64,000 bases of DNA, taken from contig NZ_CP106869.1 of NCBI RefSeq assembly GCF_025665335.1, forward strand, positions 646,501-710,500. Direction: 5' to 3'. A model generated the notes under the pieces. It searched no databases, was not told the origin of the DNA, and saw only the letters and a program-made list of their open reading frames with translations. Below are positions 31,880 through 60,258 of this stretch, one piece after another (position 1 is the first letter of the stretch; every line of letters starts with the position of its first letter). Source of the stretch: Xanthomonas sp. AM6 (GTDB taxonomy: Bacteria; Pseudomonadota; Gammaproteobacteria; Xanthomonadales; Xanthomonadaceae). Made by a program: the position numbers and the translations under genes.

Positions 31880-31931
31880 CCGCGGCTCGCAAGATTGCCG
31901 GCTATTCCCACCCCCTTCAGGAACCACCACG

Positions 31932-36499: not shown

Positions 36500-37288
36500 A
36501 TGGTGGCGCGTCTTGCATGCAGTTTGATGACACCTGGACGCGACGCCATCGGTAGCCACACGCCGCGGCATGCGTCCGGATCATCCAGGGGTAGGCGCTA
36601 CGCGCTCGTCGTGTTGGCGCTCGCCTGGCTGCATCCACCGGCAGCGTTCGCGCACGCGCCGCGATCGGGCAACGGTGCGGAGGCGCGGGTGGAGGCGGTG
36701 CGCGCGTTCGACATTCCTTCGCAACCGTTGGCCGATGCGTTGCAGGCGTTCGGGGAGGCGACCGGATTGGCCGTGCTGATCGATTCGCGCCTGCTGGTCG
36801 GGCTGGAGTCCTCGCCGGTCTCGGGACGCTATCGGCAAAGGGAGGCACTGCAGTTGATGTTGGTCGGCACAGGGCTTGCGCCCAGGTACGTGGAGGACGG
36901 GGCGTTCACCCTGGTGGCGACTGGCACCGTCTCGTCCGCCACCGAAAACGCGCATGCGGTGCCCGCGACGACGGCGGGGAGCGTGGCTGCGCGCGCGAGG
37001 AGCGCGCGCGTCATCCAGCGCTCGCTGGAGCAGGCCTTGTGCGCGTCGGCGCTGGCGCGTCCCGGCCGTTATCGCGCCGGGGTGCGCTTCTGGCTGGACG
37101 AAGGCGATCGGATCCGGCAGCCGGAACTGTTCGAATCCAGCGGCGATGCGCAACGCGACTTGGAGATCGTGCGGCGCCTGGCCGGATTGCCGCTGCGCGG
37201 CCTGCCGAGCGAGGTACCGCAACCGGTGATGCTGTTGTTGCTGCCGGAATCGGACACGTCCACGCCACCATGCAAGCGATCGCAATGA
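36500..37288 (+). CDS. STN-domain signalling protein with TonB_C-like end (VreA-like)
   Basis: This 262-residue protein has a signal sequence (RRYALVVLALAWLHPPAAFAHA) followed by an STN domain (AFDIPSQPLADALQAFGEATGLAVLIDSRL in parts, then GLESSPVSGRYRQREALQLMLVGTGL). This is the periplasmic domain that cell-surface-signalling receptors use to contact FecR proteins. No barrel follows; the C-terminal 80 residues (RYRAGVRFWLDEGDRIRQPE, LEIVRRLAGLPLRGLP) resemble a TonB C-terminal domain. The same combination without a barrel is known for P. aeruginosa VreA. The start could also be the ATG at 36527. The stop overlaps the sigma gene by four bases. Confidence 0.8.
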   Translation: MVARLACSLMTPGRDAIGSHTPRHASGSSRGRRYALVVLALAWLHPPAAFAHAPRSGNGAEARVEAVRAFDIPSQPLADALQAFGEATGLAVLIDSRLLVGLESSPVSGRYRQREALQLMLVGTGLAPRYVEDGAFTLVATGTVSSATENAHAVPATTAGSVAARARSARVIQRSLEQALCASALARPGRYRAGVRFWLDEGDRIRQPELFESSGDAQRDLEIVRRLAGLPLRGLPSEVPQPVMLLLLPESDTSTPPCKRSQ

Positions 37289-37821
37289 GCGCCGGCCTGC
37301 GCAGCCTGTTCCTCGACAACTACGAGGCCTTCCGCAAGCGCCTGAGGCGGCGGCTGGGTTCGGACGATCTGGCCTTGGACGCGTTGCAGGAAACCTGGTT
37401 GCGGGTGGAGCGCATGGGCGCTGCGACCCACCCGCAGCGCAATCCGGTCGCCTACCTGTTCCGGATGGCGGTGAACGTCGCCTCGGACCAGCGTGCCAGC
37501 CAGGCGCGGGTGCTGACCGGCGAAGAAATCGAGGCGCTGATGGACGAGGACACCGGCGGCATCGACCCGGCGGTGGTCGCCTTCGGCCAGTCGGAACTGC
37601 TGCTGCTCGCGCAAGCGCTGCAGGAACTCAGCCCGCGGCAGCGCGCCATCCTGGTGGCGGCGCGGATCGAACAGCAGCCTTTGGACGCCATCGCCCAGCA
37701 GCACGGCGTATCGCTGCGGATGATCGGCAAGGAATTGAAGAGGGCGCTGCAACACTGCGCCACGCGGCTGGACCGGAAAGCCGTGCAGCGGTTCGGTCCG
37801 GGGGCGGGAAAACCGTCCTGA
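37285..37821 (+). CDS. ECF sigma factor, FecI-like (VreI-like)
   Basis: This 178-residue extracytoplasmic-function sigma factor contains region 2 (LFLDNYEAFRKRLRRRLGSD, LDALQETWLRVERMG, NPVAYLFRMAVNVASDQ) and region 4 (ALQELSPRQRAILVAARIEQQPLDAIAQQHGVSLRMIGKELKRAL). The FecI-type pattern agrees with the FecR-like gene immediately after it. The ATG at 37285 overlaps the STN gene stop (ATGA); an ATG at 37270 is also in frame. The likely target is the huge exoprotein gene 1.4 kb downstream and perhaps its own operon. Confidence 0.87.
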   Translation: MSAGLRSLFLDNYEAFRKRLRRRLGSDDLALDALQETWLRVERMGAATHPQRNPVAYLFRMAVNVASDQRASQARVLTGEEIEALMDEDTGGIDPAVVAFGQSELLLLAQALQELSPRQRAILVAARIEQQPLDAIAQQHGVSLRMIGKELKRALQHCATRLDRKAVQRFGPGAGKPS

Positions 37822-38864
37822 TGAATATGAAGACCACAGAACCGATGCCCACTGGTGCGTCCGTCAGGGAGCAGGCGCAGCACTGGCTGCTGCGGCTGAC
37901 GTCCGGTCGCGCCACCGTGGACGATGCGGAGGCGTTTCGCCGCTGGCGCCAGGCCGATCCGCTGCATGCGCGCGCTTTCGCCGAAGCCCGGCAGGTGTGG
38001 CGGGCGCTGGAGCCGGCGCACGGGCTGGCGGTGGCTGCCGAGCGCGGGCGGGCCGATGCTGCCGCGCCTGGCAACGCCGCCACGCCGCTTGCGCCACGCC
38101 CGGGCGCCACGCTTGGGCGCCGGCATGGGCGTGAGGTGCGCATGGGACGCCGCGCGTTCCTCGGCGGCGCGGTGGCGGCCGCCACGGGCTGGATGGTCGC
38201 CAAATCGCCGCTGGGCCTGTGGCCGGACTGGCAGGAAATGTCGGCCGACTATCGCACCGCCACCGGCGAAAGCCTCGAATTCGACGTGCAGGGATTGACG
38301 ATCGCGATGGCCACCCGGACCGCGCTGAAGCGCCAGCCCGGCGGCGGCCGTTCGGTCGGCATTGAACTGCTCGAAGGCGAAGCGCAGTTCGAACTGCCGC
38401 GCGCCGCGGCGGCGGGTTTCTCGGTTCTGGTCGCGGGCGCCGAGGTCGTCCCCTCGCCCGGCTCGCGCATCAACGTGCGTTGCGTGGACGACGACATCAG
38501 GGTGACCTGCCTGCAGGGCGCGGCACGGGTCAGCCGCAACGGACGCAACGTGGTGCTGCAGTCGGCCTGGCAGGCGCGGTTGGCGCCGAACCGGATCGCG
38601 TCGGTGGCGCAGGTCGATGCCGAGCGCATCGACGGTTGGCGGCACGGCCTGCTGATCTTCAACAACGAGCCGCTGGCGGCGGTCGTGGACGAGATCAACC
38701 GCCATCGCGGCGGCCGGATCGTCGTGACCAACAGCGCACTGGCCGAGCGGCTGGTGCAGGCGCGGATCCCGCTCGATCGCCTGGACACTTTCGTCGACCT
38801 GGTGCGCGATGCCTATGGGGCAAGGATCCTGTCGATGCCCGGCGGCGTGATCGTGATGAGCTGA
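37821..38864 (+). CDS. FecR-like anti-sigma factor (VreR-like)
   Basis: This 347-residue inner membrane sigma regulator has a cytoplasmic N-terminal domain (REQAQHWLLRLTSGRATVDDAEAFRRWRQADPLHARAF in parts, the DUF4880 pattern), one membrane segment near residues 108-128 (GRRAFLGGAVAAATGWMVA), and a periplasmic FecR domain (LLEGEAQFELPRAAAAGFSV through GAARVSRNGRNVVLQSA). It ends in an STN-like module (FNNEPLAAVVDEINRHRGGR). A twin arginine precedes the membrane segment, as in FecR proteins known to need Tat export. It overlaps the sigma gene by one base (TGATG). It would receive a signal from the STN protein and release the sigma factor. Confidence 0.87.
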   Translation: MNMKTTEPMPTGASVREQAQHWLLRLTSGRATVDDAEAFRRWRQADPLHARAFAEARQVWRALEPAHGLAVAAERGRADAAAPGNAATPLAPRPGATLGRRHGREVRMGRRAFLGGAVAAATGWMVAKSPLGLWPDWQEMSADYRTATGESLEFDVQGLTIAMATRTALKRQPGGGRSVGIELLEGEAQFELPRAAAAGFSVLVAGAEVVPSPGSRINVRCVDDDIRVTCLQGAARVSRNGRNVVLQSAWQARLAPNRIASVAQVDAERIDGWRHGLLIFNNEPLAAVVDEINRHRGGRIVVTNSALAERLVQARIPLDRLDTFVDLVRDAYGARILSMPGGVIVMS

Positions 38865-39187
38865 GGCGCTCTGCGGCCGGTTTCGGGCGATTGCAGGCGT
38901 CGGTCTTCGCGTGCCGCGTATGCCGCAGGATCGCCGGGCGCGCGCGGTATAGCGCGTCCACATGACACCGGCATGAAACGCGCCAGGCGATTTGCGGCTG
39001 TTTCGCGGCGCGCATGAAATTTTTGTTGCAGCGGTTCAGTCCGCGCCGCAAGCGCCGGTCTTATCCCTCGTAACGAGCGCAACGCGGTGCATTGCGAAGA
39101 TCGTGGCCGCGCGATGCGCGGCCGCGATCGGCATGGATCGAAGGCGCTCGTCCATATCAGCGAACGATATTCCGACGGGTGGATGCA
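38865..39187 (+). promoter_or_regulatory. 323-base control region before the exoprotein gene
   Basis: No gene is seen here. Candidate sites include a GAAATTTTTGTT sequence (39016-39027) that resembles the -35 of FecI-type ECF promoters. An inverted Pho-box-like pair, ATGACAC-CGGC-ATGAAAC (38962-38979; 11 of 14 positions on the minus strand), is also present. GCATGAAA occurs twice (38971 and 39012). None is proven. The region is long enough to hold both an ECF-sigma promoter and upstream activator sites for tpsA. Confidence 0.4.
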
Positions 39188-42100
39188 ATGGTGAAACAGG
39201 CGAACCAGGCTGGCCGCAACTCCGCGAACCGCGGCTTGCGGATCAAGCCGCTGGCACATGCGATCACCGCGCTGCTGGTGGCCGGCGGCATGGCCGGCAG
39301 CGTGCACGCGCAGCAAGCGTTCAGTGCCGGCTGGTTCGCCACCAAGGGCGCGCAGCAGCAGGCCGCGGCCCAGACCGGGCAGTTGCCCAATGGCATGCCG
39401 GCCAACCTGCCGCGTCCGCAGCAGCAGACCCAGGAGGCGCGCGACAGGCTCAAGACGTCGCTGGAGAACCTGGGCACGGCGGCGCAGGCCATCGCCGTGC
39501 AGCAGCGTATGCAGCAGGCCGCGCGCGAAGCGGCGCGGTCGCGCCCGGGCGGCGTGCCCGACGGACTGGGCGAAGGCGGCCTGAAGATCGACGACAACGC
39601 GCTGACCAGCGGTTGGCACAACGCGAAGGACCCCACCCAGGCGGTCGCCGGCGGCAAGACCACCGTCACCATCGAACAGACGGCCGACAAGGCGGTGCTC
39701 AACTGGGAGACGTTCAACGTCGGCCGCGACACCCTGGTGGATTTCCGCCAGGACGCGAGCTGGTCGGTGCTCAACCGCATCAACGATCCGCTGGCGCGGC
39801 CGTCGCAGATCCAGGGCCAGATCAACGCGCCCGGCACGGTGTTCCTGATCAACCGCAACGGCGTGGTGTTCGGCGGCAGCAGCCAGGTCAACGTGAAGAA
39901 CCTGGCCGCATCGGCGGTGAACATCAGCGATCAGCAGTTCGCCAAGGGGCTCTACAGCGAGGCGAAGGGCACTGGATTCGTTCCCACCTTCGCCAACGAT
40001 CTGGACAGCGCGACGAACCGCTTCGGCCAGGCCACCGGCAGCGTCATCGTGGAGCGCGGCGCGCAGATCACCACGCACACCCCGTCCACGGTGACCGAGG
40101 GCGGCGGCTACGTGATGCTGCTCGGCGCCGAGGTCCACAACCACGGCGAGATCGCCACGGCCAACGGCCAGACCACGCTGGCGGCCGGCGATGCCTTCGT
40201 GATCCGCAAGGGCCTGGGCACCGAGCAGAACCAGACCTCGACCACGCGCGGCAACGTGGTGACCGCGTTGCGGTCCGCGCCCGCCCCGGGCGGGGACGAA
40301 GCACCGGCGCCGCGTGCCAGCGGCGTAGTGAGCAATACCGGCCTGATCCAGGCCAAGACCGGCGACATCACCTTGACCGGACGCGATGTGCGCCAGCAAG
40401 GAACGCTGCTGTCGACCACGTCGGTGCATACCCGCGGCACCATCCACCTGAGCAACGACGCAGGCGACGCGGACGGCCAGGTTCGCCTGGGCGAAGGCAG
40501 CCTGACCGCGATCGTGCTCGACGACAGCGCGACCACCGCGCTGGACGTGCAGCGCGAGACCCTGGTCAAGGACGCGGACAAGCCGGGCGACGGCGTGCAG
40601 CACCGGCGCGACCAGTCGCTGGTGCAGATCGGCAGCGGCGGCGACGTGACCTTCGACGGCGGCAGCCTGACCCTGGCCACCAGCGGCCAGGTGCTGGTCG
40701 AGGCCGCGGGTACCAGCCGCGTGCAGGAGGACGCGCGCATCGACGTGTCCGGCTATGTCGGCGTGAAGATCGCGATGGAGGCGAACAACGTCCAGATCAA
40801 CGTGCAGGGCAACGAGCAGCGCGACGCCCCGGTGAACCGCGACGGCAAGGCGCTCAACAACAACGACATCTGGCTGGACCGGCGCGACCTGGTGCTGGTC
40901 CCGGCGGGCACCAACGGCTACGAAGCCGATCGCTGGTACACCGCCGGCGGGCTGCTGGAAGTGGGCGGTTACCTGGGCATCACCGGCCATGGCATCGGCG
41001 AATGGTCGGCGCAGGGCGGCACCGTGCAGTTCGGCGGCGGCGAGCTGGTCAGCCAGCGGGGTTCCAGCATCAACCTGTCTGGCGGCACCCTCGACGTGCA
41101 GACCGGCTATGTCAACCAGACCCACCTCAAGGGCGCCGACGGCAAGCTCTACAACGCGTCGACCGCGCCCGGCGACCTGCTGTACACCGGCCTGTACCGC
41201 GGTTTCGAGGATACCCATGCGCGTTGGGGCAGTGCCGCCACCGCGTACTACTACAGTCCGTTGATCGGCAGGCAGAAGCGGCTGGAGAACGGCTACACCG
41301 TCGGCCGCGACGCCGGCAGGCTGGTGGTCGCCACCCGCGCCGCCACGCTGGAAGGCGACATCGAGACCGCCACGTTCCAGGGCGACCGGCAGACCCAGGC
41401 GCGCGAGCAGGATCTGGACGGGTATCGGCAAAGCCAGACGGCCGCCGCGCGCAACGGCGAACTGATCGTCGGCAGCTATGCGACGGTGTACGACAAGGAC
41501 GCCCAGGACCTGCGCTACAGCGCCGGCGCGGTCACGAAGGAGATCGTCATCGGACAGGTTGCCGACGACGAAACGGGGCAGACCGGCACCGATGCGCAGG
41601 GGAGCGACACCGATGCGCAACGCATCGTGCTGGACGCGGGCTGGCTCAACCGCCAGGAACTGGGTTCGCTGAAGGCCTACGCGACCGCCGGCGTGGAGGT
41701 GAACGAGGCGGTCGCGGTGGCAGCCGGTGGGCAAATCGCCTTGCATGCCACGCAGGTGGACGTCGGCGCCGATCTCACCGCGCGCGGTGGTCGCATCGCT
41801 CTGGGCAACGTGGTCGAGAAATGGACCAGCAACCTGGGATGGATCGAAACGGCGGTGGCGCCCGTGCCGGACGGCATGTCCGCGCGCACCGCGATCGATG
41901 AAGATGTGGTGCTCGATGCGCGCGGCCTGTGGACCAACCTGGCGCGGGACGGGGGTGACATCGGCGGCATGCCGTATGCGGGCGGCGGCGACATCGACGT
42001 GCGCAGCAGCGGCAGCGTGAGCGTGGGCAAGGGCGCGCTGCTGGACGCCTCGGCGGGCGCGGTGCTGATGGCCGACGACACCCTGCGCGGCGGGCGCGGC

Positions 42101-51100: not shown

Positions 51101-52729
51101 GACAAGGGCGAGTTGAAGAGCCTTGGGTCGGTGGTGGACGGCGCGCCGGGCGATCGCAGCAGCGGTGCGAGCATCGCCGTCGCCGCCGGCATGGGCGAGG
51201 GCGCGAACTGGTCCGGCTTCGCGGAGCGCTACCTGGATCCCGGCAACCAGGCCGATTCAGAACGGCCGTTCGCCGATCAGCCCGGCAAGGCGTTGACCAT
51301 CTACAGCGGCGAGTTGACATTGGCGCGCTGGTTGCAGCGCGAATTCGGCTACAGCGGCGATGACGCCGGCGCCGCGTCGTTCCTGGCCTGCAAGCAGGCC
51401 GAGCTGGATCAGCAGCGCAGCGACGCCGTGGCGCAGGGGCGGGCCGCCAGCAACCGCTCGCTGTCCCGCGAGTACAAGGTCGAGAGCCGGCTGCATCTGG
51501 TGAACTGGCTGAGCGAACGCTTCGGCGGCGACAACGGCCTGGGCCTGCGCTTCGATGCGGCGACGATGGACGCGCGCGCATTCTTCGACGGGCTGCCGCC
51601 GGAACAGCAGCGCGCGTTCCTGCGCAACGTCTACTACGCCGAACTGAAGACCGCCGGCCGCGAATACAACGACCGCGACGGCCAGCGTTTCGGCAGCTAC
51701 CTGCGCGGCCGCGAGGCCATCGCCACGCTGTTGCCGGAGCGCGACGCCGCAGGCCACACGCGCGTCTACGAAGGGGACCTGACCCTGTTCAGCAGTGCGC
51801 TCTACTACGACGACTGGGTGAACTCCCAGGGCATCGGCAAGGACCGTCCGACACCCGGCAAGACCTACATCACCAAAGCCGAATGGGAGGCGTTGGGCAG
51901 CCCGGGCTACGACGTGGCGTTCTACGACGTGCTCGACGCCGGCATCCACACCAACTTCGGCGGCGACATCAGCATCATGACGCCCGGCGGACGCACCCTG
52001 GTGGGCGTGGACGGCGGATTCGTCCCGGGCGCCGGATCGGGCGTGATGACCCAGGGCGAGGGCGACATCAACCTGTACGCGCTCGACGACATCCTCATGG
52101 GCCAGAGCCGCATCTTCACCACCTTCGGCGGCGACATCCTGGCGTGGTCCGCGCAGGGCGACATCAACGCCGGCCGCGGCAGCAAGACCACGGTGGTGTA
52201 TACGCCGCAACGCCGCGCCTACGACGATGTCGGCAACGTCAGCCTGTCGCCGAGCGCGCCGAACACCGGTGCGGGCATCGCCACGCTCAATCCCGTTCCC
52301 GAAGTGCCGCCGGGCGACATCGACCTGATCGCGCCGCTGGGCACCATCGATGCGGGCGAGGCGGGCATCCGCGTGTCGGGCAACGTGAACCTGGCCGCGC
52401 TGCAGGTGCTCAATGCCGAGAACATCCAGACCCAGGGCGAAGCCACCGGCATCCCGGTGGCGGCGGCGGTGAACGTCAGCGCGCTGACCTCGGCCAGCGC
52501 GGCGGCCAACAGCGCGGTGCAGGCCGCGCAGGACATGGTGAAACGGCAGACGCAGCAGTCGCGGCCCTCGGTGATCAGCGTGCAGGTGCTGGGTTTCGGC
52601 GAGGATTCCAGCAGTGTCGAACCGCCGCGCAAGGACGAGGGCTACGACAGCAACAGCGTGGTGCAGGTGGTCGGCATGGGAGAGCTGACGCCCGAGCAAC
52701 GCGCGCGCTTGGCGCCGGACACGCAATGA
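39188..52729 (+). CDS. giant two-partner-secretion exoprotein (TpsA, filamentous-haemagglutinin type)
   Basis: This 4513-residue protein is predicted to be exported by the TpsB transporter encoded next. It has an extended signal peptide (GLRIKPLAHAITALLVAGGM...SVHAQQ) and then a TPS domain (about residues 130-400) with NWETFNVGRDTLVDFRQDAS, NRINDPLARPSQIQGQINAP and VFLINRNGVVFGGSSQVNVK. A very long beta-helical body of FHA-like repeats follows. Near residues 4245-4400 lies a DUF3739-like region (GEGDINLYALDDILMGQSRI, IFTTFGGDILAWSAQGDINA), typical of this exoprotein class. Only three cysteines were noticed, two as CAEGASC (2236, 2242). The ATG at 39188 starts just before the signal peptide. 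Adhesion or another surface role is likely but unproven. Confidence 0.93.
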   Translation: MVKQANQAGRNSANRGLRIKPLAHAITALLVAGGMAGSVHAQQAFSAGWFATKGAQQQAAAQTGQLPNGMPANLPRPQQQTQEARDRLKTSLENLGTAAQAIAVQQRMQQAAREAARSRPGGVPDGLGEGGLKIDDNALTSGWHNAKDPTQAVAGGKTTVTIEQTADKAVLNWETFNVGRDTLVDFRQDASWSVLNRINDPLARPSQIQGQINAPGTVFLINRNGVVFGGSSQVNVKNLAASAVNISDQQFAKGLYSEAKGTGFVPTFANDLDSATNRFGQATGSVIVERGAQITTHTPSTVTEGGGYVMLLGAEVHNHGEIATANGQTTLAAGDAFVIRKGLGTEQNQTSTTRGNVVTALRSAPAPGGDEAPAPRASGVVSNTGLIQAKTGDITLTGRDVRQQGTLLSTTSVHTRGTIHLSNDAGDADGQVRLGEGSLTAIVLDDSATTALDVQRETLVKDADKPGDGVQHRRDQSLVQIGSGGDVTFDGGSLTLATSGQVLVEAAGTSRVQEDARIDVSGYVGVKIAMEANNVQINVQGNEQRDAPVNRDGKALNNNDIWLDRRDLVLVPAGTNGYEADRWYTAGGLLEVGGYLGITGHGIGEWSAQGGTVQFGGGELVSQRGSSINLSGGTLDVQTGYVNQTHLKGADGKLYNASTAPGDLLYTGLYRGFEDTHARWGSAATAYYYSPLIGRQKRLENGYTVGRDAGRLVVATRAATLEGDIETATFQGDRQTQAREQDLDGYRQSQTAAARNGELIVGSYATVYDKDAQDLRYSAGAVTKEIVIGQVADDETGQTGTDAQGSDTDAQRIVLDAGWLNRQELGSLKAYATAGVEVNEAVAVAAGGQIALHATQVDVGADLTARGGRIALGNVVEKWTSNLGWIETAVAPVPDGMSARTAIDEDVVLDARGLWTNLARDGGDIGGMPYAGGGDIDVRSSGSVSVGKGALLDASAGAVLMADDTLRGGRGGDIALIASDLPTSETVDDAKPGRLTLAGEVRSQGVKGGGRLTLQSGGSVVIGGQVPGSDGVLRQGEASLIDLITESDFSVAEGAVLPSDYRYTRSHAKPGEAVGSAPAITLGQADSYVTLGAAWALPRPDTGASYWVNTASGEQIAVYSYATPPELPAGTVITGIGGTFPTGYVVQGEVFPNGLAVKPATAVVKAGDRAPVAVVFEAGSRIAAGRVLEQDVAVAAPLHLDADLLAQGFSSYDIAGQQSLAVAEGATIDVRMPVLQWDRSSARGVETGADPSAALTLWQPPQFQEDVTAARLSLRDGADLQLHAGSRYGAPSTLSIGQGARVSVDPGRSIGLTGNGQITVEGTLRAASGHIDLQIDDFDPALNTGQSHDRSLWIGETALLDVAGLAHVALDAQGRRYGQVTDGGRIQIGAKYNADATEVGAADAFVVVRPGARLDASGAAATLDVPQGQAAPIASDGGMIHLASSNGLFVDGDLRAAAGGAGAAGGTLALALETPNYLLADRPDARVRSVREMHLVAEQEREALPERLQPGHAGTGLDYGHARIGVDRIQAGGFDNLSLLVNGVLGIGDGVDLQLGQSLRLTAGSISLAPGSQGADIALAAPYVRLAGATRSQKDHHTMPYPTPSGLPEVLEGSRLTIDSSLLDVIEDVGFGTAGAAEQADGTRLEVRRDGFETVELRSQGDLRFLKAIAKDRTSLDTGGDLVLAASQVYPATHALAEVNVGRYPYLNQWGGEAVAFDGERSLRIERTGSAEPRVPFSVFGSLYLRSGAIDHGGVLRAPLGTIVMGSGNTLVDPDEHDVGQPSSVVLRPGSITSASAAGLTMPYGGTVDGLTYTYDGRDVTYQGLGSLMGSVQLDGGRIEVQEGASIDLSGGGKLTGAAFLSGRGGSTDARLNPLVQMAADGGGFVLPGLSTNPVYAIVPGTQPGYAPVAQEHGAGDPAIGRQITLGEGVPGLPAGTYTLLPSSYALLPGAFRVELNGLANSVAAAGAVSPMRNGSYGASARLSVAGTDIADALPTQAILTSADTLRAYSQYNETSFAEFGLAWAQRDGVPRPLLERDAKTLHLAPGNGLDDRHGLQMADGTVRFAAAEGGYGGTLVVRGRDIEILGEGAAATEGFDGVSLHADVLNGVGASTLSIGNELISQFTDGQRRTQDAHLVSLGSSFTSARSITLREGAVLSAAQVFLISGQPAGGITVEQGASIDTLGRGAAAWDSKLGYVFDPGLNGVLALSNGWLDMLAPKAGDGLYGSGKIDIGACAEGASCTGSTRLYAEGTITAATEKSFLLDESVRYGTRNLVLAVGGINIGSEQALADAAARGVLPNGLTLNQQVLDRLLAGDTSTGAPALENLVLTARDSVNFFDSVELSTFDAITGKSSLKQLVLGTPALYGYGDAADVARIETDTLVWNGAKGAAGSLVAGGPGSGSGQLVVDARQIEFGYGPRSQADTLATHDRLALGFAGVALNASERITANHKGSLSVYQSRDGWDDASKSFRHSGGDLSISTPLLTGHAGSVNTIKAGGNITATAPTGAARPSPDNTALADALGAELVLDARGALTLDTAVLLPSGKLTLAADGDVALADGAWLDLAGRKIDFYDVSKYSWGGDVVLDSRQGDVLQSSASRIDISADFNRAGKLTAMALEGGVDLAGAIAAGSSGHYDAGGTAVPFASGYIDVRGQRIADFSGLNARLTAGEAFGGRSFQFRQGDLVVGDELKAREINVSVDNGSLTVNGTVDASGEQVGSIRLAANAGVTVAGSAVLDASGSVLRTDSYGKAIEAPNRATIEIDSGDGRLAIGSGARMDLGVAGASADYGTVTLNAPRLGGTTGNDVDIDASGTVRIAGARAVTVNAFQRYDDAAAGTDIGVDGRGYQTIDQAYLDRKHADSQQFVANALANGGLMNGKLGGLRAYGNQFHLRPGIEIVSSTADGDLHIDGDIDLSGHRYASVNPHAQLTGAYGSGEAGALLIRAGGDLQIFGSLSDGFDGSKLPVSPDDKGWVLPAGRMPWGGDLIIPHGGLVTLAEGTQFAAGRTLNYDLPTQGMALPAGTVLPVAMPLEQALTLPAGSVLGAAVRDAGDNIVHAAGTVLQQPVELQPGMRLGAGFRLPSDTQMAAAVWPGGVPLPAIATLDRPLALGKGALVPAETDVKLPGGAVMVNLRPAADADGNQGRTWALAPMLPQGSQSWDLRLVAAADTAAADTRLVRHDSGARLHLADTHFGLGFMEVEVPGTGRPTTYHWAPDVDVATWEAMGLFGIVPGEQIPADLLQTLRDMGVFSETPLELNDWGVGATVGVLDPGKPAETRMEGRPARQQLFSVLRTGTGDLDLISGGDFQMSSPYGIYTAGTASASLGAAYDQRRGRLADGSVLGSEGTEYEAWVDGGNGSLYQAWYPEHGGNVLLRAQGDVIGDLIGHNAGQYRYNVPLGNVREHIGTTAVGSWLWRQGTGSVDTGADAVPAAWWINFGTYVAGPANGQRDETGQRLFANTPFLTGFTGIGTLGGGNLRLETDGDAGMISARGDAALTGQTGNPRSHAPRSQGLHLAVASTGRMTAAGELVQTGGGDLDIRLGGALNPNPALQRNEHDLNSTFVNLRGALNLQAGAVGGVQLRYGVLDQLDSRGGDPFAAGRSLSGGGPVLVVGDATARLDSRGDLVLGGVVDPGRSLQYNATPFSYQGVAHEGEGWSWFSLWTPASAVDLFSAGGNLTPTTAWAESGVTEDMVSPSRGRNQSATLDGHFYPSILRAVAANGSMYYGVGTTPLLNSIAPQSPLRVSMGLTLAPSPHGEQFVNVTGKGELQLLAMDSIYASGYPITASTADPLALTSPFRPGFSGLLSYTGGGQWGFDPVRVHNVAPEAAAYSDWALEGGRHNGAALFTFASAATSAYAPQAQQPAQYYAVEGDIVGLRTGNIASLGYQGRDGVRYEGSIPVAIRAGRDITDSGTPLGKNDTVVAGKGNLVSHAHADDISVVEAGRDIRHSSFYITGPGLLEVTAGRHLYFADKGELKSLGSVVDGAPGDRSSGASIAVAAGMGEGANWSGFAERYLDPGNQADSERPFADQPGKALTIYSGELTLARWLQREFGYSGDDAGAASFLACKQAELDQQRSDAVAQGRAASNRSLSREYKVESRLHLVNWLSERFGGDNGLGLRFDAATMDARAFFDGLPPEQQRAFLRNVYYAELKTAGREYNDRDGQRFGSYLRGREAIATLLPERDAAGHTRVYEGDLTLFSSALYYDDWVNSQGIGKDRPTPGKTYITKAEWEALGSPGYDVAFYDVLDAGIHTNFGGDISIMTPGGRTLVGVDGGFVPGAGSGVMTQGEGDINLYALDDILMGQSRIFTTFGGDILAWSAQGDINAGRGSKTTVVYTPQRRAYDDVGNVSLSPSAPNTGAGIATLNPVPEVPPGDIDLIAPLGTIDAGEAGIRVSGNVNLAALQVLNAENIQTQGEATGIPVAAAVNVSALTSASAAANSAVQAAQDMVKRQTQQSRPSVISVQVLGFGEDSSSVEPPRKDEGYDSNSVVQVVGMGELTPEQRARLAPDTQ

Positions 52730-52955: not shown

Positions 52956-54584
52956 ATGTTCCAATCGAACAAGGCGCTTGCGTTCGCGCCATTGACCCTG
53001 TGCATCCTGGCCGGCCTCGACGTGGCCAGTGCACAGTCGGCGCCGCCGGCAGGGCCGGACGCCGTGGCGGCGCAGGCCGCTGCGCCGCCGCCGGCGCAGC
53101 GCGTCAACATCAACGAGTACCTGGTGCGCGGCAACACGGTGCTGGCGGCCCGCGACATCGAAAAGGCGGTCTCCGCGTACCTGGGGCCGGGACGGACGTT
53201 GCAGGACGTGGAAGCGGCGCGCGGCGCGCTGCAGGCGGCCTATCAGGGCAAAGGCTACCAGTCGGTGTACGTGGACCTGCCGGAACAGCAGGTCAGCGGC
53301 GGCGTGGTGATCCTGCAGGTGACCGAAACGCGCATCGGTCAGGTCAGCGTGAGCGGCGCCGAGCACAACGGCAGCGACGCGCTGCGCGAGCGCGTGCCCG
53401 CGTTGCGGCCGGGCAGCGTGCCCGACTTCGAGCAGGCGCAGGTGCAGCTGGCGGCGTTGAACCGCACCGCCAAGCGCCAGGTGGTGCCCCTGGTCAAGCA
53501 AGGCCAGGCCGACGGCACCATGGACGTGGACCTGAAAGTGCAGGACAAATCGCCTTGGCGGTTCGGCGCCACGCTCAACAACGACCACAGCGCCGACACC
53601 GAGCCGCTGCGGTCGATCCTCACCATCGGCCACGACAACCTGTGGCAGAAGGAGCACGTGGCGTCGCTGACGTTCTTCGCCGCGCCGCAGGACCTGGACC
53701 AGGCGAACGTGTGGTCCGGGTCCTACGCCATGCCGTTGGGCAGCCCGGACTGGACGCTGGAGTTCTCCGGCTACAAGTCCGACAGCAACGTCGTGTCCAT
53801 CGGCGACACCAACGTCACCGGCAAGGGGCATGCGCTGGGCGCCAAGCTGGTGCGTTCGCTGCCGATGACCGGCGCTTGGTGGCACCAGTTGTCGATCGGC
53901 GTGGAGTTCAAGGACCTGGACGAGTCGGTGGCGATGGTCGGCATGCCGTCGGACTTCGCCCCGCTGAAGTACGCGCCGGTGACATTCGCCTACAACGGCT
54001 TCCGGCAGGGCGACAAGCACCACCTCAGCGTCGGCCTGCAGACCGTGTTCGGCACGCGCAGCCTGCTGGGCTACGGCAGCAGCGACGATGAGTTCGACTG
54101 GAAGCGCGCGCATGCCGACGGCAGCTTCTTCGCGGTCAAGGCCGACCTCAGCGACACCTACACGATGGAGAACGGCGCGCAATGGTTCGCGCGGATCTCC
54201 GCGCAGCTGACCGACCAGCCGCTGGTGTCCGGCGAACAATTCGCCGCCGGCGGCATGTACACGACCCGCGGCTACCGTTCCGCCGAAGGCATCGGCGACT
54301 ACGGCGGCCTGGCCACCATCGAGTGGCGCAGCCGCCCGCTCGCGCTGTGGGACCTGCAGGACTGGCGCGTCTACGGCTTCCTCGACGGCGCCTGGCTGGG
54401 ATTGCGCAGGCCGCTGGCCGAGCAGGACGACGCATCGTCGATGGCGGCGATCGGCGTGGGCACCAGCTTCCGCGTCACTGAACACTTCAACGTCCGCCTC
54501 GACTACGGCCACACGCTGACCGACGGGCCGACCACGACCAAGGACGCCGACCGCCTGCATATCAGCGTTGGCGCCAACTACTGA
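52956..54584 (+). CDS. two-partner-secretion transporter (TpsB, ShlB/FhaC/HecB family)
   Basis: This 542-residue outer membrane Omp85-family transporter exports the neighbouring TpsA. It has a signal peptide (LTLCILAGLDVASAQ), an alanine/proline-rich linker, POTRA domains (INEYLVRGNTVLAARDIEKA, YQGKGYQSVYVDLPEQQVSGG, VVILQVTETRIGQVSVSGAE) and a 16-stranded barrel. The VRGY-type tip motif of loop 6 is present as T437-R-G-Y in TTRGYRSAEGIGDYGG. The protein ends in DRLHISVGANY with a C-terminal aromatic, as expected for barrel assembly. Close pairing with tpsA makes it the dedicated partner. Confidence 0.92.
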   Translation: MFQSNKALAFAPLTLCILAGLDVASAQSAPPAGPDAVAAQAAAPPPAQRVNINEYLVRGNTVLAARDIEKAVSAYLGPGRTLQDVEAARGALQAAYQGKGYQSVYVDLPEQQVSGGVVILQVTETRIGQVSVSGAEHNGSDALRERVPALRPGSVPDFEQAQVQLAALNRTAKRQVVPLVKQGQADGTMDVDLKVQDKSPWRFGATLNNDHSADTEPLRSILTIGHDNLWQKEHVASLTFFAAPQDLDQANVWSGSYAMPLGSPDWTLEFSGYKSDSNVVSIGDTNVTGKGHALGAKLVRSLPMTGAWWHQLSIGVEFKDLDESVAMVGMPSDFAPLKYAPVTFAYNGFRQGDKHHLSVGLQTVFGTRSLLGYGSSDDEFDWKRAHADGSFFAVKADLSDTYTMENGAQWFARISAQLTDQPLVSGEQFAAGGMYTTRGYRSAEGIGDYGGLATIEWRSRPLALWDLQDWRVYGFLDGAWLGLRRPLAEQDDASSMAAIGVGTSFRVTEHFNVRLDYGHTLTDGPTTTKDADRLHISVGANY

Positions 54585-54622
54585 ACACGCCTTCCATCGC
54601 TGCACCTCGGAGATTCCATCAA

Positions 54623-56461: not shown

Positions 56462-56470
56462 GGACGCGCG

Positions 56471-56884
56471 ATGGCCAGGCCCAAGAGATTCGGTATCAAG
56501 AAACGCGAGAAGGGGATCAACGTCACCCCGTTCGTCGATGTGCTGCTGGTGGTGCTGGTGATCTTCATCCTGACCAGCAACGCGACCATTCCCGGCATCC
56601 AGGTGAACCTGCCCAAGGCCAGCTCGAGCATGGCGTTGGAGAAGCCGAAGACCAAGGCCATCACCGTCGACAACGCCGGCCAGATCTTCCTGGACGCCTT
56701 TCCGGTCAGCCTGTCCGAACTGGAAGACCGGCTGCGCAGCGAGAAGGCGGTCAATCCGGAGTTTCCGGTGATCGTGCGCGGCGACGCGCAGGTGCAGTAC
56801 GCGCGCGTGGTCGAGGTGCTGGACCTGCTGCGCAAGGTGGAGATCAGCCAGGTCGGGCTGGTCACCGGCAAGCCTCAGGGGTGA
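56471..56884 (+). CDS. ExbD/TolR-family motor protein
   Basis: This 137-residue inner membrane protein has one helix near the N-terminus (INVTPFVDVLLVVLVIFILT), which includes the conserved aspartate of the ExbD/TolR proton path, and a periplasmic domain (QIFLDAFPVSLSELEDRLRS, VIVRGDAQVQYARVVEVLDL). Length and layout are standard. It starts ten bases after the ExbB-like gene and is followed four bases later by the TonB-like gene, so the three are one operon. Confidence 0.93.
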   Translation: MARPKRFGIKKREKGINVTPFVDVLLVVLVIFILTSNATIPGIQVNLPKASSSMALEKPKTKAITVDNAGQIFLDAFPVSLSELEDRLRSEKAVNPEFPVIVRGDAQVQYARVVEVLDLLRKVEISQVGLVTGKPQG

Positions 56885-56888
56885 CGGC

Positions 56889-57593
56889 GTGACTTCCTCC
56901 CACCCCGGTCGCGGCCGACCCACGCGTCCATGGCCACGCTGGCTTCCGGCGGTCCTGGCCTCCATCGGCCTGATCGCGGCGCTGGGCTTTCTGGCCTGGT
57001 ACCTGCTCTTCAAGGACGCCGCGAGCACGCGGCGCCCGGTCGCGGACACGCCGATGGTGATGTTGCCGCCACCGCCGCCACCGCCGCCGCCGGAACCGGA
57101 GCCCGAACCGGAGCCGGAGAAGGAACCGGAAGAGACGATGCCCGAACCCGAACCGCTGGAAGAAGCGCCCAAGCCGGCCGAGGAAGCGCCCACGCCGGAC
57201 ACGGCGGACCCGGTGACCATGGACGCCGACGCGCAGGCCGGCACCGACAACTTCGGCATCCAGTCCGGCAGCGGCGGCGGCATGAGCGGCGCCGGCGCCG
57301 GCGGGGGCGGCGGCAACGCGTCCTACGGCCGCTATCTGGGCTACGTGCTGCAGCAGGCGGTCTCGCGCGACGAACGGATCCGCCGGCTGGCCTTCCAGTT
57401 GACGGTGCACGTGTGGCTGGACGGTTCCGGCGCACTGACCCGCGTCGAGCTGTTGCGCGGCAGCGGCAACCAGGAAGCCGACGAGGCGGTACTCGCCGTC
57501 ATCCGCGCCGTCGGGCGCGTGGACGAGATTCCGCCGGCCTCGTTGAAATTTCCCGCGCGCGTGCTGGTGCAGGGACGGCGTCCGGCCGGATGA
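56889..57593 (+). CDS. TonB-like energy transducer
   Basis: This 234-residue protein has one N-terminal membrane anchor (WLPAVLASIGLIAALGFLAWYLLF), then a proline and glutamate-rich spanner (PPPPPPPPPEPEPEPEPEKE), a glycine-rich patch, and a TonB C-terminal domain (LTVHVWLDGSGALTRVELLR, NQEADEAVLAVIRAVGR). It uses a GTG start (56889). Genes for ExbB-like and ExbD proteins lie directly upstream, so it would carry energy from that motor to an outer membrane partner. Which partner is unknown; candidates are the receptor at 31932, the porin that follows, or the secretion pair. Its stop is followed by an ATG in the ATGA overlap pattern. Confidence 0.88.
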   Translation: MTSSHPGRGRPTRPWPRWLPAVLASIGLIAALGFLAWYLLFKDAASTRRPVADTPMVMLPPPPPPPPPEPEPEPEPEKEPEETMPEPEPLEEAPKPAEEAPTPDTADPVTMDADAQAGTDNFGIQSGSGGGMSGAGAGGGGGNASYGRYLGYVLQQAVSRDERIRRLAFQLTVHVWLDGSGALTRVELLRGSGNQEADEAVLAVIRAVGRVDEIPPASLKFPARVLVQGRRPAG

Positions 57594-57646
57594 GCACGCG
57601 TTCGAACCAAACCTTTCGAAGACTTCCAAACCTTGTGAGCAAGCAG

Positions 57647-59371
57647 ATGACCCGTTCGACCATACGATCCGCCTTGCGCGGACTGCACACCACCGCTGTC
57701 GCCACCGGTATCGGCCTCGTCCTCTTCGCCGCGGGCGCGCAGGCGCAGAACGCCAAGGGCGGCGAAAGCACGATGATCAAGCTGATCCGCGGCCTGATCG
57801 ACAGCGGCGCGCTGAAGCCGGACGTGGGGCAGGCCCTGCTGGCGGAAGCGCAGCGCGAGGCCGGATCGGCCGCAGCGGCCTCGGCGATCGCCGCGCAGCC
57901 GGGCGACGTGCGGGTTCCGTACATCCCGGACACCGTGCGCGACGGCATCCGCGACGAAGTCAAAGCCCAGGTCATGGCACAGGCCAAGGCCGAGCGCTGG
58001 GCGGCGCCGGAGCAGGTGCCGGAGTGGACGCAGCGCCTGCGCGTGCAGGGCGACGTGCGCGTGCGCAACGAATCGCGCCTGTACTCCGAGCGCAACAGCG
58101 ACATCGAGGTCGACTGGAGCCGCATCAACGCCGGTTCCGGCTACGACATCAACGAGAACACCAATCTCAACTTGCCGCCGCTGCGCAATACCCGCGAGGA
58201 CCGCAACAATTCCTGGCGCATCCGCGCGCGCATCGGCGTGGTCGCCGACCTGGGCGAACACACTCGCGCCGGCGTGCGCCTGGCGTCGGGCAGCGACGAC
58301 GGCCCGGTGTCCACCACGCAGACCCTGGGTGGCGGCCTGGCCAAGAAGGACGCATGGCTGGATCAAGCGTGGCTGTCCTGGTCGCCGGTCGACTGGATGG
58401 AGATCGTCGGCGGCCGCTTCGGCAATCCCTACTGGTCCACCGACACCCTGTTCTCCAACGACCTGAACTTCGACGGCATCGCGTTCAAGTACGCCGACGA
58501 AGTGGGGCCCGACGGCCTGTCGCTGTTCGCCACGCTGGGCCTCACCCCGCTGGAGTATTCGTCCGACGGTTTCCCCAGCACCAGCCAGAACAAGATGCAG
58601 AGCGAGAACAAGTGGCTCAACGGCCTGCAGGTGGGCGCGGACTGGGCGTTCGGCAACGAGCAGAAGCTGCGCGCGGCGGTGGCCTACTACGACTTCCGCA
58701 ACGTCGCCGGCGAACTGTCCCAGCCCTGCGCGCTGTATGCCGGCGCCGACCACTGCAGCACCGACTGGTCGCGTCCGGCGTTCATGCAGAAAGGCAATAC
58801 GCTGATGCTGCTGCGCGACATCGCGCTGGATCCGCTGGACCCGGCCAACACGCCGCTGCCGCAGTATGTGGGCCTGGCGTCGGAGTTCGAACTGCTGGAT
58901 GTCAACCTGAAATGGGAGACGCCCGCGTTCGCCGGCTACGGCGTGCGCCTGGAAGCGAACTGGCTGCAGAACCTGGCCTACGACCCGGCCGAGATGTGGA
59001 AGCGCGCCAACGGCGGGATCGTCACCAACCTGGGCGCAGCGGCGGGCGCCGTCGCCGGACCGCAGGATATCCGCAGCGGCGATACCGCCTATCTGGCACA
59101 GGCCACGTTCGGCAACCTGGCGCTCAAGCAGTCTGGGGACTGGAATGCGTGGCTGGGCTACAAGCGGATCGAAGCCGATGCGCTGCCCGACGGTTTCAAC
59201 GACTCCAACTTCCATCTGGGCGGAACCAATGCCAAGGGCTACTACCTCGGCGCCTCCTACATGTTCGACAGGAACGTCTGGTTGAGCGGCCGCTGGATGG
59301 CGGCCAAGGAAGTGACCGGCGCGCCGTTGTCGATCGACCTGTTCCAATTGGAAGTCAACGCCGGCTTCTGA
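57647..59371 (+). CDS. outer membrane porin-like protein
   Basis: This 574-residue beta-barrel protein matches the layout of 'putative porin' families (Porin_5-like). It has a signal peptide (GLHTTAVATGIGLVLFAAGAQAQ), a helical or coiled segment of about 80 residues (MIKLIRGLIDSGALKPDVGQ) and then many beta strands rich in aromatic girdle residues (WRIRARIGVVADLGEHTRAG, EIVGGRFGNPYWSTDTLFSN). The C-terminus is LFQLEVNAGF, ending in phenylalanine as barrel proteins do. The start could instead be the ATG at 57590, which overlaps the TonB stop, but the shorter version gives a normal signal peptide. Cargo is unknown. Confidence 0.85.
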   Translation: MTRSTIRSALRGLHTTAVATGIGLVLFAAGAQAQNAKGGESTMIKLIRGLIDSGALKPDVGQALLAEAQREAGSAAAASAIAAQPGDVRVPYIPDTVRDGIRDEVKAQVMAQAKAERWAAPEQVPEWTQRLRVQGDVRVRNESRLYSERNSDIEVDWSRINAGSGYDINENTNLNLPPLRNTREDRNNSWRIRARIGVVADLGEHTRAGVRLASGSDDGPVSTTQTLGGGLAKKDAWLDQAWLSWSPVDWMEIVGGRFGNPYWSTDTLFSNDLNFDGIAFKYADEVGPDGLSLFATLGLTPLEYSSDGFPSTSQNKMQSENKWLNGLQVGADWAFGNEQKLRAAVAYYDFRNVAGELSQPCALYAGADHCSTDWSRPAFMQKGNTLMLLRDIALDPLDPANTPLPQYVGLASEFELLDVNLKWETPAFAGYGVRLEANWLQNLAYDPAEMWKRANGGIVTNLGAAAGAVAGPQDIRSGDTAYLAQATFGNLALKQSGDWNAWLGYKRIEADALPDGFNDSNFHLGGTNAKGYYLGASYMFDRNVWLSGRWMAAKEVTGAPLSIDLFQLEVNAGF

Positions 59372-59392
59372 CGCATCCGGCGACCAGGAACG

Positions 59393-59413
59393 CCCTGCGC
59401 CGATACGCAGGGC
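59393..59413 (+). other. perfect hairpin between porin and sapC genes
   Basis: GCCCTGCG and CGCAGGGC form an eight-bp perfect stem with a five-base loop, 22 bases after the porin stop. No T run follows, so it is more likely an mRNA-stabilising or attenuating hairpin than a full terminator. It could lower expression of the SapC gene relative to the porin. Confidence 0.6.
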
Positions 59414-59463
59414 AATGCGCTACCCCTTGTAGCACCAACGACATCGAACCAGACGGACACGAC

Positions 59464-60258
59464 ATGACTTCCGAAACAATGGACGACGCATCCACACCGC
59501 CGACGGACCACGCCGCCAGCGCGCCGCCTCACCCCGCCACGCCGCCGCCGCTGCCGGCTTCTCCATGGCCGATGTTCTATCGCCGGCCGGTGTTGCTGTC
59601 CTCGCACGAACACGCGGATTGGCGGGTCCGCCCGGCCGGCGTGGGCTTCGCCGCGCACAGCCATTCGGTCCCGGTGGTGGCCGGCGAGTTCGCCGCGGCC
59701 TCGCGTTCCTACCCGCTGGTCTTCGCTGGCGGCGACTACATGCCGATGGCGTTGCTGGGGCTGCAAGCGGACAGCAACCGCTTCGCCGACGGGAACGACT
59801 GGAAGGCCGGCGCCTATGTTCCCGCCTACGTGCGCCGCTATCCGTTCGTGTTCGTGCAGATGAACGAACCGGAAGGCTATGCGCTGGCGATCGACGCCGA
59901 TGCCGACATGGTGGTTGCGTCCGGTGAGGAGGGACTCCCCTTGTTCGAAGGCGGCCAGCCCAGCGAGCTGACCCGGCAGGCGCTGCAGTTCTGCGAAACC
60001 TTCACCCGAGAAGACCGGGCGACCCGGCAGTTCACCGCGCAACTGGCCGCACAGGGCCTGCTGCTGGAGCGCACCGCCAACATCACCTTCCCCGATGGCC
60101 GCAAGGCCAGCATCGACGGCTTCCATGTGGTGGATACGGAAAAGTTCGCCACGCTGTCGGAGGAGGTCATCGTCCAATGGCACCGCAACGGATGGCTGTC
60201 GCTGGTGCATTTCCATCTGGCCTCACTGGCGCGCTTCACCGACCTGATGGCGAGTTGA
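59464..60258 (+). CDS. SapC-family protein
   Basis: This 264-residue protein resembles the SapC family, named after a protein encoded near Campylobacter S-layer genes and common beside outer membrane receptor genes in other proteobacteria. Recognisable parts are YRRPVLLSSHEHADWRVRPA, SYPLVFAGGDYMPMALLGLQ, YVPAYVRRYPFVFVQMNEPE and LTRQALQFCETFTREDRATR. No signal peptide is seen; the first 30 residues are proline/alanine-rich. It is the last gene of the exoprotein-motor-porin series. Biochemical function is not established for this family. Confidence 0.82.
   Translation: MTSETMDDASTPPTDHAASAPPHPATPPPLPASPWPMFYRRPVLLSSHEHADWRVRPAGVGFAAHSHSVPVVAGEFAAASRSYPLVFAGGDYMPMALLGLQADSNRFADGNDWKAGAYVPAYVRRYPFVFVQMNEPEGYALAIDADADMVVASGEEGLPLFEGGQPSELTRQALQFCETFTREDRATRQFTAQLAAQGLLLERTANITFPDGRKASIDGFHVVDTEKFATLSEEVIVQWHRNGWLSLVHFHLASLARFTDLMAS

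Follow-up and report, generated by a model that had tools for sequence, protein, structure and literature searches.

The closest described counterpart of the locus analysed here is the PUMA3 system of Pseudomonas aeruginosa, in which vreAIR encodes a sensor, a sigma factor and an anti-sigma factor, as in the window, i.e. the whole stretch of 64,000 nucleotides that was analysed (PMC2729926, PMC7035377). The PUMA3 set further comprises pdtA, phdA, pdtB, exbB2-exbD2-tonB4 and the porin PA0696, and sigma-VreI is reported to drive pdtA and the phdA-pdtB-exbB2D2-tonB4 unit (PMC4971064). A 2009 paper likened the C-terminal domain of VreA to TolA, and the accessible part of that paper states no connection with the PdtA tail. 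A Mot/Exb-kind proton channel beside a giant secreted adhesin, the arrangement found here, is also described for SiiA-SiiB and SiiE of Salmonella, where SiiAB controls the surface retention of SiiE and an uncoupler lowers this retention (PMC6272769). However, SiiE depends on type I secretion and is unrelated, and the accessible text of that work describes no TonB arm. Two-partner secretion (TPS) of the HMW1/HxuA type also differs, since its periplasmic C-terminal anchor is a disulfide loop, with no motor mentioned in the accessible part of the source. The signalling domain, FecR-like regulator and ECF sigma factor of FecA/FpvA signalling are all present in the window, but here the STN domain is not fused to an outer-membrane receptor barrel and sits on a TonB-like C-terminal domain instead.

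The content and order of PUMA3/PdtAB recur in the window, with a vreAIR-like triplet followed by TpsA, TpsB, ExbB, ExbD, TonB and a porin. The sequence-only reading had named this one-strand series, including SapC, and Pfam matches bear it out. Its comparison with PUMA3, PdtAB and ExbB2D2 was also apt: in P. aeruginosa PA7 (L040), TpsA is followed by TpsB, ExbB, ExbD, TonB and the porin in identical order, and the PA7 TpsA has a DUF3739-type sequence and the two tail boxes listed below.

36500..37288, + strand: VreA-like sensor with STN domain and TonB-like C-terminal domain (about residues 165-250); Pfam, homologue profile, hhalign and AF2
37270 (or 37285)..37821, + strand: ECF sigma factor; Sigma70_r2 and r4_2 above cut-off
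37821..38864, + strand: FecR/VreR-like anti-sigma regulator; DUF4880 48.3 bits, FecR 37.4 bits
39188..52729, + strand: TpsA giant exoprotein, 4513 aa; TPS domain 94.8 bits, C-terminal DUF3739 136.2 bits
52565..52600, + strand: TpsA tail box 1, PSVISVQVLGFG, proposed TonB docking strand; core pattern and covariation with the TonB C-terminal domain
52652..52687, + strand: TpsA tail box 2, NSVVQVVGMGEL, proposed VreA docking strand; co-occurrence with VreA
52956..54584, + strand: TpsB outer-membrane transporter; POTRA_2 61.5 bits, ShlB 79.5 bits
54623..56461, + strand: ExbB-type channel with N-terminal DUF2341 and LamG/ConA-like part; MotA_ExbB 100.8, DUF2341 68.5, Laminin_G_3 54.3 bits
56471..56884, + strand: ExbD, 108.2 bits, with the membrane aspartate (TPFVDV), its role as in E. 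coli ExbD
56889..57593, + strand: dedicated TonB of the TonB_2 type; 23.8 bits (cut-off 22)
57647..59371, + strand: Porin_5 putative porin; 622.7 bits
59464..60258, + strand: SapC; 217.7 bits

The TPS domain of TpsA together with the POTRA_2 domain and ShlB barrel of TpsB identifies a type Vb pair, and ExbB, ExbD and TonB make up a complete Ton system. The regulators overlap as proposed: the sensor and sigma genes share 19 bases, or 4 if the sigma factor begins at 37285, and the sigma and FecR genes share 1 base, while 9 bases separate ExbB from ExbD and 4 bases ExbD from TonB. The 323 bases between the regulators and TpsA hold no hxc type II genes, in which the window differs from PUMA3, as it does in its additional SapC. 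The DUF2341 and LamG part of the ExbB fusion is probably periplasmic, judging from its signal-like start and ExbB topology. A profile of the locus TonB gave weak matches to HasB and TolA.

The proposal that the motor belongs with the TPS pair held across genomes. DUF3739 was found in at least 11 and DUF2341 in 10 of 299 genomes, all 10 lying within the 11 (Fisher p 8e-18, without phylogeny correction); at genus level, at least 10 and 9 of 181 genera were positive, with 9 shared (p 2e-14, likewise without phylogeny correction). This co-occurrence rules out chance neighbourhood and indicates one unit. The motor is not a general part of TPS, since DUF2341 occurs in 10 of the 111 TPS genomes among the 299; no member of the motor/porin set was found in the fetched DNA of 20 control TPS loci without DUF3739. 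There are exceptions: G230 and G675 have TpsA and VreA with no DUF2341 found, and G648 and G678 have two-box tails with neither VreA nor DUF2341. The genome of the window contains a second complete cluster (C1:443044-462368), with regulators absent from the stretch read there. The regulators, which the sequence-only reading had counted as part of the locus, are thus present in the window and optional elsewhere, being absent from 20 class-draw stretches and from the G019 locus. SapC fared similarly: it is present in the window and was rejected as a core component, occurring in 2 (L021, L023) of 80 named loci, for many of which the fetched DNA is too short to reach its position. These are the best 80 of 537 by likeness to a mostly two-box query and are therefore biased towards two-box tails.

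What is new here is a conserved C-terminal box of DUF3739 TpsAs and a second box that goes with a VreA-like sensor. The core pattern of box 1, composed after the tails had been viewed, occurs in 105 of 114 DUF3739 TpsA tails and in 0 of 16 complete control tails, as well as in 2 of 452 and 0 of 464 body windows. The 16 control tails remained from 20 control TpsAs after exclusion of three running off the stretch and of L253, which was in the wrong frame. The tail of G378, at a contig edge, was left out of the box table, that of G497 was read outside the 114-row set, the L028 genome was left out, and G484 (25.1 bits, under the cut-off, with one stop) was omitted from the box and VreA counts. Of 60 stretches, 21 lacked a complete tail, 13 being cut by contig ends at about 10 kb or less and 8 being full-length. 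Ten of the named tails (best 80 of 537), all from Stenotrophomonas, have a degenerate box 2 (SAFQFPQ), as do G094 and G248, both of which have VreA. Compared with the TonB boxes of 30 receptors of the same genome, the boxes have only the VxVxG pattern in common, and a receptor-derived matrix does not single them out. A single-sequence model of 51830-52726 places strands at both boxes, with a low-confidence pLDDT of 35.1 that is too weak to use.

Two comparisons connect box 1 with TonB. Across 46 paralogous tails from 14 genomes, box 1 identity was 0.866 within genomes against 0.672 between them (0 of 2000 shuffles), compared with 0.385 against 0.402 for box 2 (1600 of 2000) and 0.725 against 0.680 for the DUF3739 core (63 of 2000). 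Taken singly, all 12 genomes compared showed a higher identity within than between genomes for box 1, but 7 of the 12 did so for box 2. In Mantel tests, which do not fully remove phylogeny, variation in box 1 followed that of the TonB C-terminal domain (71 systems; partial r 0.315, p 0.002). The relation persisted in each of six thinned sets, whose sizes ran from 46 down to 16 (p between 0.002 and 0.030). No covariation of box 1 was found with ExbD, the ExbB motor part or the N-terminal part of TonB in the 71 systems, nor with TpsB (POTRA or barrel) or the porin (partial r -0.04) in 47 systems. The covariation and the paralogue patterns point to the TpsA C-terminal tail as the probable client of TonB and its motor. 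Among the targets that the sequence-only reading had offered for the motor, the exoprotein side is thereby favoured and the porin disfavoured, while a receptor may still be a client.

The porin also bears on nutrient uptake, in which TpsA would gather the substrate at the surface and the Ton-powered import pore, as client of the motor, would be the porin, TpsB or a receptor. Porin_5 regularly comes after TonB in relatives, a TonB-dependent receptor lies upstream on the same strand (31797-34193), and phosphate starvation is reported to induce the P. aeruginosa cluster (PMC4971064); control by phosphate through PhoB is known only from this species. With no receptor inside the cluster in a Pfam scan of the window and no box 1-porin covariation, uptake appears improbable.

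TonB is not the sole candidate for contact with the tail because the periplasmic part of ExbB also covaries with box 1 (partial r 0.162, p 0.012 in 71 systems; 0.114, p 0.07 in 47), with 0.21-0.31 in the thinned sets (p <0.04 in four of six), as does the ExbB motor part in two thinned sets (p ~0.03). The DUF2341-LamG part of ExbB might therefore read the tail, with the TonB covariation stemming from shared ancestry. We regard this as quite unlikely: the TonB C-terminal domain gives the stronger correlation in each of the full sets and a significant one in all six thinned sets, and VreA, which tends to accompany the second box, has only the TonB C-terminal domain in common.

Docking of the tail on TonB could alternatively serve export or release, with TonB pulling on the TpsA end or on a TpsB plug to let the final portion through or free it. 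This shares the docking evidence from paralogues and covariation, and the motor also occurs at loci where no sensor was seen, so signalling is not its sole role. Yet TonB pulls towards the inner membrane, opposite to the direction of export, and box 1 does not covary with either part of TpsB. Type V translocation is, moreover, regarded as independent of electrochemical gradients (PMC5422565). A role in export or release is thus rather unlikely, if somewhat less so than the two preceding alternatives.

The second box leads to the sensor. The VreA-like protein of the window has 262 residues, for which AF2 models two confident domains. Its STN match in Pfam is weak (19.3 bits against a cut-off of 28.4), but a profile of 14 homologues matches the FpvA/FecA signalling domains (best E 5e-20). 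Its C-terminal domain is a copy of that of the locus TonB, judging from the hhalign match (99.2%, E 3.5e-19) and from a domain profile that gives 19 locus TonBs 21.5-85.9 bits, whereas none of 10 further TonB_C proteins from the window's own genome exceeds 19.0. VreA was found in at least 28 of 30 two-box genomes against at least 1 of 22 one-box genomes. A forecast set before the search, that genomes with one-box TpsAs would lack VreA, agreed with 21 of the 22, in which it was not seen; G146 has VreA together with one-box TpsAs, and the absence in G219 is less sure, as 8 of its 17 candidates were scored.

Box 2 may nevertheless be a mere trait of one TpsA clade, unconnected to VreA. In a quick tree from which G146a, G611, G174a and G174c were left out for long branches, 35 of 36 two-box rows fall into one clade, and box 2 covaries at best weakly with the VreA C-terminal domain (r 0.11, p 0.053; partial p 0.112; 3 of 47 pairs without a box by pattern). 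Against this, the one-/two-box label requires at least two changes on the quick trees: G270, with two boxes and VreA, groups outside the clade with one-box rows, and its sister row, the second TpsA of the window's own genome, has neither box 2 nor VreA beside it. A clade trait is thus a serious contender, although the less probable one. A deletion of vreA in P. aeruginosa is reported to leave the sigma-VreI regulon unchanged under phosphate starvation, which counts against sensing by VreA (PMC4971064).

Our preferred reading, to which we give a probability of about 60 %, is a form of two-partner secretion tethered by the proton-motive force, in which the tail is held by TonB and box 2 is read by VreA. 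We infer binding, the direction and purpose of the force, and signalling as follows. TpsB would export the giant TpsA fibre, whose C-terminal tail may remain periplasmic by analogy with HMW1/HxuA as covered in a review. Because the pull of TonB is directed inwards, it would most likely use energy to hold the fibre back or keep it under tension, and the fibre would be let go upon loss of energy or of contact with TonB. In a subset including the window, VreA, with its receptor-type signalling domain and copy of the TonB C-terminal domain, would read box 2 and thereby keep FecR/VreR and the ECF sigma factor informed of the fibre's state. The whole arrangement would resemble a TonB receptor split over separate proteins. 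More tentatively, and at somewhat below even odds, we propose a motorised surface fibre: ExbBD-TonB would grip the periplasmic end of a TPS fibre via a docking strand, the proton-motive force would hold or tension it, and a TonB-derived sensor on a second strand would turn its mechanical or contact state into transcription.

The cluster type itself is already known from P. aeruginosa as PUMA3. Teaching has it that TPS export is energy-free and that TonB serves receptors. A proposed docking peptide across one TPS subclass, which covaries with its own TonB and is doubled beside a TonB-derived sensor, makes both textbook statements testable. The preferred reading suggests what VreA and the uncharacterised exbB2-exbD2-tonB4 of P. 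aeruginosa may do, and likewise Pfam DUF3739 and the fusion of DUF2341 to ExbB. If the motorised fibre is real, TonB would gain a class of client that is a secreted protein and not a receptor, and the findings suggest that a cell can hold, move or read the product of a secretion system thought to be energy-free.

The association between the TPS pair and the Ton motor is not a matter of chance. Of 299 Pseudomonadota genomes drawn, 111 had a TPS domain match, at least 11 a DUF3739 match and 10 a DUF2341 match; the three counts were made under identical settings on matching genome lists and are taken as one draw. All ten DUF2341 genomes belong to the DUF3739 genomes, so that the TpsA-motor linkage suspected in the sequence-only reading exceeds chance, with Fisher p-values, which ignore kinship, of 8e-18 by genome, 2e-14 by genus and 2e-13 within TPS genomes. 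The sole DUF3739 genome of this draw without DUF2341, G230, is an assembly of 70 contigs. In the class draw, DUF3739 occurred in at least 24 of 370 genomes, and DUF2341 was present in all 21 DUF3739 genomes searched, a set that left out G000 and G094, where DUF2341 was already known, and the weak G484. No motor or porin genes of this set were found in the DNA examined at 20 control TPS loci without DUF3739, 17 of which had a visible TpsB.

When named genomes were scanned with the TpsA end, 537 relatives were confirmed, and the best 80 of these were retained. TpsB lies in the DNA examined at 37 of the best 80 loci, followed in order by ExbB, ExbD, TonB and the porin at 31, while the DNA ends earlier at five. 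At the remaining locus (L053, S. maltophilia D457), the TonB frame is split into two overlapping frames from 17370, possibly because of a disrupted gene or a sequencing error. For the other 43 loci, which lack TpsB in the DNA examined, 31 genomes were searched, and 28 had one DUF2341 match each, so a single motor seems to serve several TpsA genes. The profile search did not find DUF2341 in the other three of these 31 genomes, G648, G675 and G678, the latter two being metagenome-assembled records. SapC was seen in the DNA examined at two of the best 80 loci. One record (L022), bearing the title Bacillus subtilis strain SK7B5, contains genes of this Gram-negative cluster (TpsB, ExbB, ExbD, TonB and porin), and its assembly is probably mislabelled or contaminated.

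The plus strand of the window encodes, in this order, a 262-residue STN protein (VreA), an ECF sigma factor, a FecR-type regulator, a 4513-residue TpsA, TpsB, a DUF2341-LamG/ConA-like-ExbB fusion, ExbD, TonB, Porin_5 and SapC, which confirms the single-strand gene set proposed from the sequence. The regulator genes overlap one another, and 4 to 38 bases separate neighbouring genes from TpsB to TonB. The 4.92 Mb genome of the strain contains a second cluster, listed here with features adjoining either cluster:

C1:443044-462368, minus strand: second cluster, with TpsB, DUF2341-LamG-ExbB, ExbD, TonB, porin, two small genes and TpsA
C1:441415-442722 (L005), minus strand: 435-residue protein, PstS phosphate-binding-like by eye, directly after the second TpsA
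Window 31797-34193, same strand as the window cluster: TonB-dependent receptor upstream of it
Window 61242-61682: ORF with a SymE toxin match of 22.2 bits, below the Pfam cut-off of 29
Window 61903-63372, minus strand: dCache-GGDEF diguanylate cyclase directly past the cluster

In the second cluster, only DUF2341 and DUF3739 were assigned by profile matches and the remaining genes by reading. Its TpsA, with DUF3739, is 4019 residues long. Reading of this stretch revealed no gene for a sensor, sigma factor or FecR protein. At a third TPS locus (L253), no motor genes of this cluster type were found in the 20 kb examined. The PstS-like neighbour is notable given the phosphate control of the cluster in P. 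aeruginosa. The window receptor is among 68 Plug matches in the genome, and G+C drops to 0.60 near the ORF with the SymE match.

The C-terminal end of DUF3739 TpsAs is formed by an alanine-rich segment and a short hydrophobic box (box 1), which reads PSVISVQVLGFG in the window TpsA. A core box pattern, composed after the tails were read, matches 105 of 114 DUF3739 tails. Eight of the nine other tails have a variant at the same position, such as VRMLDAG in Pandoraea, and the ninth, G146a, is aberrant. The pattern was absent from all 16 complete control TpsA tails and from 464 control TpsA windows, and it occurred in 2 of 452 windows taken from the bodies of DUF3739 proteins. A likeness test of the tail boxes against receptor TonB boxes was negative. 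In the PdtA-like group, a second box (NSVVQVVGMGEL in the window TpsA) follows about 20-40 residues beyond box 1. It was recognised by eye in all 80 tails of the best 80 of 537 named relatives, in a degenerate form (SAFQFPQ) in ten, all from Stenotrophomonas. Only a single box is present in the readable class-draw tails and in those of G019, G219, G146 and the second TpsA of the strain.

Among 21 one-box TpsA stretches (20 from the class draw and G019), 11 have the order TpsB-TpsA-ExbB-ExbD-TonB-porin and two TpsA-TpsB-ExbB-ExbD-TonB-porin; two combine TpsA and motor genes with TpsB out of view, and in six the motor lies elsewhere or past the end of the stretch. Sensor, sigma and FecR genes were seen in none of the 21. 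In the PdtA-like group, the VreA-sigma-FecR triplet lies upstream of TpsA genes and, at some loci, upstream of the TpsB-ExbB-ExbD-TonB-porin unit. A VreA gene precedes each of three TpsA genes in G174. In the genome of locus L047 (G658, Bordetella ansorpii), at least ten TpsA genes of the DUF3739 kind were counted, every one preceded by a VreA gene on its own strand, and a single DUF2341 match was found.

Box 1 would be expected to vary little between the TpsAs of a genome if they all rely on one TonB, whereas box 2 could differ where every TpsA is paired with a VreA of its own. A complete tail was found in 39 of 60 stretches downstream of VreA genes, and seven further tails gave 46 in 14 genomes. 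Twelve of these genomes have at least two tails, and 11 of the 12 have one DUF2341 match (none in G230). Box 1 identity was 0.866 within and 0.672 between genomes (0 of 2000 label shuffles as high), with greater likeness within in 12/12 genomes. For box 2, the values were 0.385 and 0.402 (1600 of 2000 as high) and 7/12 genomes; weak constraint on box 2 would be indistinguishable from private partners. Gene conversion of the TpsA 3' end would raise the likeness of the DUF3739 core as well. This 125-residue core was 0.725 identical within and 0.680 between genomes (63 of 2000 as high), and in G671 and G174, where box 1 is more than 0.9 identical, it is 0.53 and 0.43 identical.

Across 71 systems and with the other parts controlled, box 1 covaried with the C-terminal domain of TonB (partial r 0.315, p 0.002) and more weakly with the periplasmic part of ExbB (0.162, p 0.012), and not with ExbD, the ExbB motor part or the TonB N-terminal part. 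For the 47 systems that also include TpsB and a long porin, the value for the TonB C-domain was 0.325 (p 0.002), compared to 0.114 (p 0.07) for the ExbB periplasmic part, 0.086 (p 0.13) for the ExbB motor, 0.014 for TpsB POTRA, -0.005 for the TpsB barrel and -0.041 for the porin. In six runs thinned at ExbB identities of 0.9, 0.8 and 0.7 (n 46 to 16), p ranged from 0.002 to 0.030 for the TonB C-domain in all six and from 0.004 to 0.09 for the ExbB periplasmic part; for the ExbB motor, it was 0.026 and 0.030 in two. In 44 pairs, the VreA C-domain gave r 0.11 with both box 2 (p 0.053, partial p 0.112) and box 1 (p 0.039, partial p 0.073).

By sequence comparison, VreA is a relative of TonB, with a C-domain most like the TonB of its own cluster. 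The N-terminal half of its profile matches FpvA/FecA signalling domains (best E 5e-20), and the C-terminal half can be aligned to the TonBs of the loci across 93 columns (hhalign probability 99.2, E 3.5e-19). A C-domain profile made without any TonB sequence gave 19 locus TonBs scores of 21.5 to 85.9 bits, with the G146 TonB lowest, and ten other TonB_C proteins of the strain at most 19.0 bits. The AlphaFold model from 14 sequences (mean pLDDT 75.9, pTM 0.45) has two well-modelled domains, at residues ~65-142 and ~159-250. The C-domain of P. aeruginosa VreA has been compared with TolA, with a looser likeness to TonB, and an outer-membrane partner has been surmised (PMC2729926, in excerpt); a closest relationship to the own-cluster TonB was not found described in the portions of open-licence literature searched.

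It was predicted beforehand that one-box TpsAs come from genomes without VreA. Full-length VreA was found in at least 28 of 30 two-box genomes (8/8 in the phylum draw and at least 21/23 in a further set, G230 being common to both); in the two exceptions, G648 and G678, DUF2341 was not found either. Among 22 one-box genomes (20 class-draw genomes with readable tails, G219 and G146), VreA was found only in G146, where the triplet accompanies a TpsA with an aberrant tail and no second box (L205, L206). The best VreA E-value in G219, 5.6e-8 among 8 of 17 candidates scored, is too weak for a full VreA. In 21 class-draw genomes, the C-terminal half of the VreA profile mostly matches the TonB adjoining DUF2341 instead. 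The association gives a Fisher p of 3e-11, which ignores kinship. On the trees, the box label requires at least two changes, chiefly because G270, with two boxes and VreA at the locus, is sister to the second TpsA of the strain, with one box and no VreA seen there; the branches of this pair are long or compositionally odd. The association therefore represents a few independent events, not fifty.

Taken as sequence evidence, these results would best fit a model in which the TpsA tail docks on TonB and possibly makes a second contact with the DUF2341-LamG part of ExbB. The TpsA C-terminus would be periplasmic, carried over from HMW1 and HxuA, whose C-termini are described as such (TPS review PMC5422565, in excerpt). 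In the regulated form, the receptor would be split, with VreA as its signalling half. Against this, vreA is dispensable for the P. aeruginosa regulon in phosphate starvation (excerpt of PMC4971064), and insertion mutants in tpsA, tpsB, the tonB homologue PA0695 and PA0696 are reported not to have lost virulence in zebrafish embryos when vreI was overexpressed (excerpt of PMC2729926). The P. aeruginosa cluster and its regulation were already known, its Ton genes being termed still uncharacterised (PMC7035377), and the function of DUF2341 on ExbB/MotA-type proteins is called unknown (PMC12505986), both in the sections available; the strict pairing of DUF3739 with DUF2341, the boxes of the tail, the relationship between VreA and TonB and the covariation were not found in the parts of the open-licence literature searched. 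Signalling would be an addition to the motor system, because all 21 class-draw genomes searched have the motor, while no full VreA was found in them. Ton and Tol systems are described as exerting tensile force on the outer membrane, and FhaC-TolB-like proteins have been proposed as relatives of the TolB ancestor (PMC12204202, in part); by analogy, TpsA retention or tension would therefore be a more likely effect of the motor than export. SiiAB with SiiE provides a functional precedent, in which a proton channel controls how a giant adhesin is retained at the surface, with retention reduced by an uncoupler (PMC6272769, in part).
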